NCBI RefSeq assembly: GCF_029910535.1
Contig: NZ_CP069362.1
Location: 2,108,001-2,172,000, forward strand
Direction of reading: 5' to 3'
Source: Marinitoga aeolica
Lineage (GTDB): Bacteria; Thermotogota; Thermotogae; Petrotogales; Petrotogaceae
Length of the DNA stretch: 64,000 nucleotides
Numbering within the stretch: position 1 is the stretch's first letter; every line of letters begins with the position of its first letter. Shown in pieces: positions 4,007-6,876 of the stretch. The notes under the pieces were generated by a model. That model worked only from the letters and a program-made list of their open reading frames with translations. It was not told the origin of the DNA and made no database searches. The position numbers and the translations under genes are program-made.

Positions 4007-4032
4007 AAAAAAGGAGCCTTAAGACTCCTTTT
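4007..4032 (-). terminator. Terminator of the folate operon
   Basis: On the minus strand AAAAGGAG / CTCCTTTT forms an 8-bp stem with an 8-nt loop that contains the folK stop codon, followed by a run of T. The stop codon in the loop means the last translating ribosome would disturb the hairpin. Confidence 0.75.
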
Positions 4033-4501
4033 CATATCTTTTTATTTTACTTTTATCTATTTCATCATATCGTTCTTTAATTGTTTTATTAAATATAGGA
4101 TGTTTCCAATCTGGAGAAATATCATTAAGTGGGACAATAACAAAATCTCTTTCAAACATATGCTTATGAGGAATATTTAAATCGTCTTTTTCTAAAACTA
4201 AATCTCCATAATATATAATATCCAAGTCTATTTCTCTTGGCCCCCATTTAAATCTTTGTTTTCTTTTAAGATCTTTTTCAATATTCTTGCATATTTTTAA
4301 TAATTCATATGGTTCTAATTCTGTGTTTATTAAAACACAAGCATTTAAAAAAGTATCTTGTTCTGTATATCCCCATGGTTCTGTCTCGTATATGTTTGAT
4401 ATTTTTATTATTTCTACGTATTTTGATAATAATTCAATAGCTCTTTTTATATTATTTAATCTATTTCCTACATTGGAGCCTAATGCAATTGCACTTAATA
4501 T
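4019..4501 (-). CDS. folK: HPPK, 2-amino-4-hydroxy-6-hydroxymethyldihydropteridine pyrophosphokinase; non-canonical ATA start
   Basis: FolK transfers pyrophosphate from ATP to 6-hydroxymethyldihydropterin, one step before FolP. The frame is open from the folP end and encodes the HPPK hallmarks: ALGSNVGNR at the N-terminus, YETEPWGY, DTFLNACV, RFKWGPREIDLDII and NIPHKHMFERDFVIVPL. No ATG, GTG or TTG lies upstream of these; the first (TTG) is 270 nt in and would give a useless 68-residue stub. The best start is ATA at 4499-4501, giving 160 aa, the normal family length. It lies 7 nt after AAGGGGGT, a near-perfect Shine-Dalgarno sequence. A -1 frameshift from folP over AAAAAA is the alternative. 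Confidence 0.85.
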   Translation of the reverse strand: MLSAIALGSNVGNRLNNIKRAIELLSKYVEIIKISNIYETEPWGYTEQDTFLNACVLINTELEPYELLKICKNIEKDLKRKQRFKWGPREIDLDIIYYGDLVLEKDDLNIPHKHMFERDFVIVPLNDISPDWKHPIFNKTIKERYDEIDKSKIKRYEKES

Positions 4502-5691
4502 TTTTTATACCCCCTTAATGCTTCAATCATTTTCGCTGTTCTATAATTTTCTTTTACATCATGTACTCTTATGATTTCTACATCATTTAAAGCATAGTAT
4601 GAAGTTAAAGCTAAAGTTCCTTCTAACCTATCCTTTGTATCTGGTAGATTTAAAACATGACCAATCGTGCTTTTTCTTGAGTGTCCCATTAATATTGGGT
4701 AACCAAGAACTCTAAATTCAGAAATATTGTAACTTAAATTTAAATTATCCTGAACTCTTTTTCCAAATCCAAATCCAGGATCTATGATTATTTGTTCTAC
4801 ACCGTGTTTATGTGCATAATCTATTCTTTCTTCAAAATATTCTAATAATTCACTTATACAATTTTCATAATATGGATTCTTTTGCATATCTTTTGGAGTT
4901 CCTTTTATATGCATTATAACTATAGGTAATTTTGATTCTGCGACTACATGAACCATATTCTTGTCAAATTGCATTCCAGAAATATCATTAATTATATCCA
5001 CACCATTTTCAATGGCTTTTTTTGCAACCTGAGATTTATAGGTGTCAATACTTAAAACAATTTCTGGAAACTCTTTTCTTAAAGCTTTAATAACAGGTAT
5101 AATCCTTTCAATTTCTTCTTTTAATTCCACACTTTCAGAACCAGGTCTTGTTGATTCAGCACCGATATCAAGTATTTCAGCACCTTCTTCAATCATTTTT
5201 TTAGCGTTTTCTATAGCCTGATCAACACTTTTTATTCTGCTTGGAGCATGAAAAGAATCTGGAGTTACATTTAAAATACCCATTATTTTTGAATTTTCAC
5301 CTAAAATCAATTTTCTATTATCGCTAATAGAGTATTCCCATTTTTTCTTTTTTATGTTTTTGAATAATTTTTCGAGAGCGTTTCTAACCTTTGGTATATC
5401 CCAATAATTCATACTCATTAATTTTTTTATTAATAAATCATATTGTTTTTTAGTTCCTATTAATAATATATTTGTTTTATCTATTTTATGATTAATAGCG
5501 TATTTATGAATAGCTACATCTCCACCACGAGATAACATTTCCTGCTTAATTATATTGGCGCTTGTAACATCAATATCTTCAATTAAGATATAATAATGTC
5601 TCATTTTAGAATTGAAAATAGGGATACTTGCAGGATCAACCTGGATTTCTTTTTCCAGGTCAATATCTTCAAGCATTCTTAATCTTACCAT
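4495..5691 (-). CDS. folP: Dihydropteroate synthase with N-terminal extension
   Basis: FolP condenses hydroxymethyldihydropterin pyrophosphate with p-aminobenzoate. The TIM-barrel part begins near residue 130 and shows GILNVTPDSF, ESTRPGSE, DISGMQ, DPGFGFGK and GHSRKS. At 398 residues it is about 120 longer than a minimal DHPS. The extra N-terminal part (about 1-120) is a separate alpha/beta segment with no motif I recognise. The start overlaps the folE2 stop by 7 bp. The last codons (AGG GGG TAT) supply the ribosome binding site for folK. Confidence 0.93.
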   Translation of the reverse strand: MVRLRMLEDIDLEKEIQVDPASIPIFNSKMRHYYILIEDIDVTSANIIKQEMLSRGGDVAIHKYAINHKIDKTNILLIGTKKQYDLLIKKLMSMNYWDIPKVRNALEKLFKNIKKKKWEYSISDNRKLILGENSKIMGILNVTPDSFHAPSRIKSVDQAIENAKKMIEEGAEILDIGAESTRPGSESVELKEEIERIIPVIKALRKEFPEIVLSIDTYKSQVAKKAIENGVDIINDISGMQFDKNMVHVVAESKLPIVIMHIKGTPKDMQKNPYYENCISELLEYFEERIDYAHKHGVEQIIIDPGFGFGKRVQDNLNLSYNISEFRVLGYPILMGHSRKSTIGHVLNLPDTKDRLEGTLALTSYYALNDVEIIRVHDVKENYRTAKMIEALRGYKKY

Positions 5692-6431
5692 GCCTTTCCC
5701 TCTCTTTCAGAAAAAGCATTATGGTTATGTATGCTTTCGTAACTAATTACTTTTATTTTATATCCTTCAACTCTACTATCTTTTTCTAAAAATAAACTTA
5801 AATCTCTAACAACATCTTCCACAAAATGTGGGTTATCATACATATGCTCAGTTACATATTTTTCATCTTCTCTTTTTAAAAGAGAAAATACCATCCCGCT
5901 GGATGATTTTTCAACATATTTAGCAATATCTGTAATTTTTACTTCTTCTCTTAATTTAAGACCAATTTCAACTAAAGCCCTTTGATTATGAGCACCATAA
6001 TTGGAAATAGCTTTTGAACACGGGCAAAGAGTTATAATAGGTATCGCAAGATATAATCTCATTTCTTCATCTATAATCTCATATGTAATATCGCATTTAG
6101 TATAACTTTCCAATTTTGTAATAGGAGCTTTTCTCAATGAAAAATAAGGAAAAGAAACTTTTATATAAGATTTTTTAGCTTCTAAAGCTCTCTTTAAATC
6201 TTTGCTCATTTCTAATAACTTTTCTTCAGAAAGATTATTATGGTATTTATTTAATATTTCAACAAATCTACTCATATGCGTTCCTCTAACGTTTTCATCT
6301 AGATCAACGAGCATTGTAAAATTACCTATGGTATGATTATTATCAAATATTATAGGATACTCTAAATCTGAAATTCCAACACCATGAATATATATTCCTC
6401 TATTATCTAATTCTGATTGAACGTCTTTCAA
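5685..6431 (-). CDS. folE2: GTP cyclohydrolase FolE2 (type IB)
   Basis: This enzyme makes dihydroneopterin triphosphate from GTP, the entry step of folate synthesis, in the metal-flexible FolE2 family rather than FolE. It shows the FolE2 block TLCPCSKAISNYGAHNQR with the catalytic Cys, plus SSGMVFSLLKR and YDNPHFVEDVVRDL. The TTG at 6429-6431 is chosen as start because AGGGGTG lies 6 nt upstream; this gives 248 aa. A GTG at 6440 is possible but lies inside that ribosome site. It follows the PTPS stop directly and overlaps folP by 7 bp. Confidence 0.9.
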   Translation of the reverse strand: MKDVQSELDNRGIYIHGVGISDLEYPIIFDNNHTIGNFTMLVDLDENVRGTHMSRFVEILNKYHNNLSEEKLLEMSKDLKRALEAKKSYIKVSFPYFSLRKAPITKLESYTKCDITYEIIDEEMRLYLAIPIITLCPCSKAISNYGAHNQRALVEIGLKLREEVKITDIAKYVEKSSSGMVFSLLKREDEKYVTEHMYDNPHFVEDVVRDLSLFLEKDSRVEGYKIKVISYESIHNHNAFSEREGKAW

Positions 6432-6432
6432 T

Positions 6433-6789
6433 TTATTCACCCCTATAATAAACCACATTATTTTCTGTTTCATATAGTGCTACTTCATATAATTTGCAAT
6501 TATCTCTTTTTAATTTTTTTTCTAATTTATTCCATATCCACATAGAAATATTTTCTGCAGTTGGTTGTTCAATGATATTATTGATATATGAATGATCTAA
6601 AATATTTAATACTTCATCTTTAACAATTTTTTTTAATTCGAGAAAATCTATAACCATCCCTTCTTCATTAGGAGTACCTTCTACTGTAACTTCTAATCTA
6701 TAATTATGTCCATGTAAAGCTTCACATTTTCCATGATATCTAACGAGGTTATGAGCAGCAGCAAAGTTAAAAATTCTTTTAACTAACAT
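6433..6789 (-). CDS. 6-pyruvoyl-tetrahydropterin synthase family protein with CExxHGH motif (PTPS-I/III type)
   Basis: A 118-residue COG0720 protein. The predicted zinc ligands are H13, H26 and H28. The active-site region reads C22-E23-A-L-H-G-H. QueD/PTPS-I enzymes use the Cys (CxxxHGH), while PTPS-III enzymes use Glu (ExxHGH) and make 6-hydroxymethyldihydropterin directly. A protein with both, like this one, belongs to the bifunctional PTPS-I/III group described for COG0720. It is the first gene of a folate operon with no folB, so a FolB-bypass role is likely; a queuosine role is also possible. The start at 6789 follows AGAGGTG by 5 nt. Confidence 0.85.
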   Translation of the reverse strand: MLVKRIFNFAAAHNLVRYHGKCEALHGHNYRLEVTVEGTPNEEGMVIDFLELKKIVKDEVLNILDHSYINNIIEQPTAENISMWIWNKLEKKLKRDNCKLYEVALYETENNVVYYRGE

Positions 6790-6876
6790 ATAGCACCTCT
6801 TTCTTATAATTTTCACCGTTATTATATCACAAAGTGACAGAGCCACTTTTTCAATTATATTTCAAAAATTAGAACT

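Follow-up and report, generated by a model that had tools for sequence, protein, structure and literature searches.

Conserved AUA or AUU codons as the probable start of the folate gene folK in Marinitoga

The window, a 64,000-nucleotide stretch of the Marinitoga aeolica genome, carries on its minus strand a folate cluster with the gene order PTPS-folE2-folP-folK. The last two genes meet at a junction where the end of folP and the beginning of the HPPK coding frame overlap. The genes of this cluster and the features of the junction are as follows.

6433 to 6846, minus strand: PTPS/QueD-family gene with the motif CEALHGH, first in the folate cluster (Pfam PTPS, 131 bits; open reading frame translation)
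5685 to 6473, minus strand: folE2 (GTP cyclohydrolase), upstream in the same cluster (Pfam GCHY-1, 255 bits; NF010200 FolE2, 235 bits)
4495 to 5691, minus strand: folP (dihydropteroate synthase), with an ATG start and the stop TAA at 4497-4495 (Pterin_bind, TIGR01496)
4509 to 4516, minus strand: Shine-Dalgarno AAGGGGGT, within the folP 3' end, complementary to 16S rRNA and invariant in five species
4502 to 4507, minus strand: five of the six A of the A6 run, forming the spacer between Shine-Dalgarno and start, or the slip site if the frames are joined by slippage
4499 to 4501, minus strand: proposed folK start codon, ATA in four species and ATT in one
4022 to 4501, minus strand: folK (HPPK) from the ATA start, 160 codons, with the stop TAA at 4021-4019 (Pfam, TIGR01498)

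The predicted FolK protein matches the HPPK family over the full length of its profiles, both for Pfam HPPK (PF01288, 143.8 bits, profile positions 2-116 of 116) and for TIGR01498 folK (153 bits, positions 3-128 of 128), in each case above the cut-off. It aligns with solved HPPKs from residue 3 on. The 160-residue HPPK that an earlier, sequence-only reading of this DNA had drawn from ATA is in keeping with these matches: the protein read from ATA is a complete HPPK with a normal N-terminus, and no second HPPK was found elsewhere in the same genome. FolP is likewise well supported (Pfam Pterin_bind, 281 bits; TIGR01496 DHPS, 329 bits) over residues 135-392, and the roughly 130 residues ahead of this DHPS domain have no Pfam match. 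At the head of the cluster, the PTPS/QueD-family protein (6433-6846, minus strand) carries KCEALHGHNY, which fits CExxHGH, a motif known from hybrid PTPS-I/III enzymes that act in queuosine as well as folate synthesis (PMC5041015). No folB lies between the genes of the cluster, so the PTPS/QueD-family enzyme may stand in for FolB.

Read 5' to 3' on the minus strand, folP ends in ...GAA GCA TTA AGG GGG TAT AAA AAA TAT TAA, with the two AAA codons at 4506-4501 and the TAA stop at 4497-4495. HPPK is read in the -1 frame relative to folP (AAA ATA TTA AGT GCA ATT GCA TTA GGC TCC AAT...), in a frame of 161 codons at 4504-4022 (minus strand) that is limited upstream by an in-frame TAA. We confirmed the earlier claim that folK has no ATG, GTG or TTG start: the first such codon in the frame is codon 94, a TTG at 4225, preceded by 93 codons or 279 nt without a usual start, and no ATG, GTG or TTG is able to yield the complete protein. 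The first near-cognate codon of the frame is the ATA at 4501-4499 (minus strand). It stands directly before the folP stop (AUAUUAA in the mRNA), and the stop itself overlaps folK codons 2-3. Two starts further downstream were considered and rejected. Initiation at the internal TTG at 4225 would cost more than half of the enzyme, and the near-cognate Ile codon 5 (ATT/ATT/ATA/ATC/ATA) is about 19 nt from the Shine-Dalgarno and within the enzyme's first strand.

The 16S rRNA of the same genome, located with the Rfam 16S model, has the 3' end ...GGATCACCTCCTTTCT, in which the segment CACCTCCTTTCT is complementary to AAGGGGGT near the end of folP. Pairing of AAGGGGGU with ACCUCCUU of the 16S extends over 8 nt with one G-U, at a computed -11.6 kcal/mol. 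Between AAGGGGGT and ATA we count 7 nt, as had been noted before. Measured from the Shine-Dalgarno core, the distance to the start codon is 6-8 nt in 41 of the 51 longer frames of the window that were counted, and for the folK ATA it is 8. folK is thus preceded by a strong Shine-Dalgarno that fits the organism's own 16S and lies within the window's range of start spacings. The last 106 nt of folP (4495-4600, minus strand) fold at -15 kcal/mol, with a z of -2.73 against shuffles in the one sequence folded, and the folK Shine-Dalgarno lies partly within a stem of this fold. Such a predicted structure, seen in one sequence, could mask the Shine-Dalgarno unless folP is translated.

We searched seven genomes of the genus, five of which have folP and folK and two of which have neither. 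The junction AGGGGGTATAAAAAATATTAAG is common to all five folK-bearing sequenced species, and each of these genomes contains exactly one copy of AGGGGGTATAAAAAATNTTAAG. At the start site, always in the same position, four species have ATA (G000, G001, G004 and M. lauensis) and one has ATT (G006), so a near-cognate codon is conserved across species; ATG, GTG or TTG occurs there in none of the five. The sequence-only reading had proposed an alignment of the junction in relatives as a check and had named an ordinary start in such relatives as a possible refuter. The alignment keeps both ATA/ATT and the A6 run in 5/5 species, and no ordinary start appears in any of them. In the M. lauensis assembly (87% complete), folP and folK are both interrupted by frame-breaking indels that resemble sequencing errors.

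Among congeners, folP and folK share 78-85% DNA identity, and the longest invariant run of the 1.66-kb folP-folK alignment is the 18-nt TAAGGGGGTATAAAAAAT. AGG and GGG are minority codons in the two genes (13 of 100 Arg codons and 16 of 103 Gly codons, respectively). From the rates elsewhere in both genes, in four clean genomes, joint invariance has an expected frequency of about 4% for these Arg-Gly codons and of about 1% for the whole R-G-Y-K-K set of five. The two AAA codons would be invariant by expectation about 44% of the time, and the A6 run itself is invariant in the five species. On these figures, conservation favors the Shine-Dalgarno over the A6 run as the preserved element. Both ATA and ATT encode Ile, so the codon pattern taken by itself is just as compatible with an Ile residue inside a fusion. 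A single substitution would turn ATA into ATG at the price of Tyr to Cys in the final FolP residue alone, and 0/5 species have it. The comparison is drawn from five species of one genus.

The earlier reading had left two explanations side by side, initiation at ATA and a -1 slip that fuses FolP to FolK. The former is strengthened by the conserved site, the Shine-Dalgarno and the infC gene of the genus, while the latter loses ground on its motif, on the Shine-Dalgarno distance and on the lack of fused relatives. A programmed -1 frameshift on AAA AAA TAT would make FolK only, or also, as part of a FolP-FolK fusion of about 560 residues. Several features of the junction suit this idea, as HPPK sits in the -1 frame relative to folP, an SD-like sequence precedes an A6 run that is the same in all five species, and Ile-Leu-Ser-Ala is conserved directly after the slip point. 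However, the 0 frame reads TAT AAA AAA TAT, which offers T_AAA_AAA and no X_XXZ_ZZN heptamer, leaving just the weak tetramer A_AAA. Of the six tetramers that stood out clearly from background in E. coli, A_AAA came last, even when a strong pseudoknot was present (PMC4066793). Shine-Dalgarno sequences stimulate -1 shifts at distances of 9-14 nt and +1 shifts at 3 nt (PMC5009743); here, the gap from GGGGG to the A6 run is 3 nt, as for a +1 shift, whereas the HPPK frame is -1. The downstream 111 nt fold no better than shuffles (z 0.33, folded without pseudoknots), and the conservation of A6 is near expectation for two Lys codons. A fused FolP-FolK frame occurs in 0 of 75 Thermotogota genomes with HPPK, in which the longest HPPK frame, at 328 aa, is too short for one. 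With neither a heptamer, nor a Shine-Dalgarno at 9-14 nt, nor a fused frame in relatives found at folP-folK, we regard a programmed frameshift as improbable. A lesser version, in which the site would make free FolK along with a little FolP-FolK fusion, may still apply, although we think it unlikely. The E. coli prfB +1 frameshift site is AGG GGG TAT CTT TGA, and its codons AGG GGG TAT are found at the folP end identically and in frame. Yet prfB shifts +1, whereas the folK frame is -1 and the motif fits an ordinary Shine-Dalgarno for a downstream start. In eukaryotic bifunctional proteins, HPPK is N-terminal to DHPS. The parallel that had been drawn to plant and fungal fusions therefore does not carry over: the two enzymes are the same, but the domain order is opposite to that of a FolP-FolK slip product, and no such fusion was seen in the 75 Thermotogota genomes with HPPK.

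The same fused protein could arise by standard translation if RNA polymerase slippage at the A6 run added one A to some transcripts. The run is suitably placed, and one additional A gives the HPPK frame, but the tracts on which bacterial transcription slippage has been described are 9 A or T, or long poly(A) (PMC5009743); six is short by that measure, and we consider this route very unlikely. Hardly credible is the proposal that folK is not expressed from the HPPK frame at all, its lack of a start reflecting a sequencing error or a decaying pseudogene. Loss is indeed common, with the HPPK match absent in two congeners and in nearly all members of the family's other genera. Against this, in the four assemblies that show no obvious indels the folK frame is unbroken and conserved, and the identical junction in five independently sequenced species rules out sequencing error as the source of the missing start, disposing of the hidden ATG, GTG or TTG that had been named as another possible refuter.

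We favor, at a probability of about 0.83, a model wherein folK is translated separately as a 160-residue HPPK from AUA, or AUU in one species, by an initiation that would be translationally coupled, weak and probably restrained by IF3. The usual start is absent, the Shine-Dalgarno and AUA/AUU are conserved, the former is complementary to the 16S, and folK and folP are intact; from this arrangement we infer initiation at AUA/AUU, coupling, low yield and IF3 dependence. The strong Shine-Dalgarno AAGGGGGU in the last folP codons would keep the 30S subunit on the AUA, whether its ribosome is just terminating or newly arriving, and the initiator tRNA would then pair with that codon (AUU in G006). 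According to a review, a Shine-Dalgarno shortly before the end of a gene may retain the 30S for reinitiation when the stop and the next start are close together (PMC5009743). Given a Shine-Dalgarno inside folP and a folP stop that shares bases with folK codons 2-3, translation of folK is probably coupled to that of folP. Since the initiator anticodon is mismatched at the third base of the codon, the start should be weak and IF3-restrained, and less FolK than FolP would be made as a result.

That near-cognate codons can serve as starts in this genus is suggested by infC. There, GGAGGGATAAGT precedes ATT in each of the six copies read, one of them from G000, in the context GGAGGGATAAGT ATT AAG/AAA. 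Given this conserved ATT behind a strong Shine-Dalgarno, the ribosomes of the genus very likely use AUH-type codons. Gene callers limited to ATG, GTG or TTG would mis-start infC of the genus. More generally, the start codon of infC is AUU or one of its relatives (AUU/AUA/AUC), and the gene is restrained by its own product, IF3; pcnB is a further precedent for a near-cognate start. folK is similar to infC in having a conserved near-cognate AUH start behind a strong Shine-Dalgarno (ATT for infC in the genus, AUA in S. aureus; PMC13009471). It differs in that infC is autoregulated by its own product, whereas folK is the gene of a metabolic enzyme with its Shine-Dalgarno inside the preceding gene. 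In S. aureus, AUA is the start codon of infC and ccpN and AUU that of cvfC1, with extended Shine-Dalgarno sequences, and the reporters tested gave about 10-30% of the output from AUG (PMC13009471). The ccpN genes of S. aureus and B. subtilis (AUA) and cvfC1 of Staphylococcus (AUU) thus resemble folK in their conserved start and extended Shine-Dalgarno, but they are not folate genes, and their initiation was shown by ribosome profiling and reporters, whereas that of folK is deduced from conservation and pairing. Streptomyces sigR has a conserved GTC start, replaced by GTT in a minority of species, and is repressed by IF3 (PMC5472188). Like folK, it combines a conserved non-canonical start with a conserved strong RBS, its minority codon GTT corresponding to the ATT of G006; the codon and the gene are different, and IF3 repression is shown for sigR but only predicted for folK.

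An AUA/AUU start of folK would be a rare but known way to hold gene output low. Folate supplies the formyl group of initiator tRNA, and a weak folK start would therefore tie folate production to the initiation machinery (IF3 and initiator tRNA). The further idea that the folK AUA/AUU acts as an IF3-sensitive, genus-wide set point for folate synthesis is speculative, and we think it unlikely. To our knowledge, very few bacterial genes with conserved non-canonical start codons have been characterized, and we found no earlier report on non-canonical starts of folK or on Marinitoga start codons in the open-license literature. While the mechanism class is already known, the gene, the genus and the phylum appear to be a new instance. 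Together with the ATT of infC, the AUA/AUU of folK in Marinitoga would widen the known range of non-canonical starts to a distant phylum and a core vitamin pathway, and makes folK a candidate IF3-sensitive gene. Standard gene callers truncate or miss genes with non-canonical starts, and folK could be miscalled as missing or truncated in Marinitoga genomes.

Folate synthesis seems patchy in the Petrotogaceae, as judged from gene content. Two of the seven genomes of the genus have no HPPK match, both of them also lacking folP, and none was found in the other family members searched except in one, G007. Several further families of the Thermotogota have an HPPK frame of 270-330 aa, whose N-terminal half resembles holo-ACP synthase. 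These long frames are an apparent AcpS-FolK fusion.
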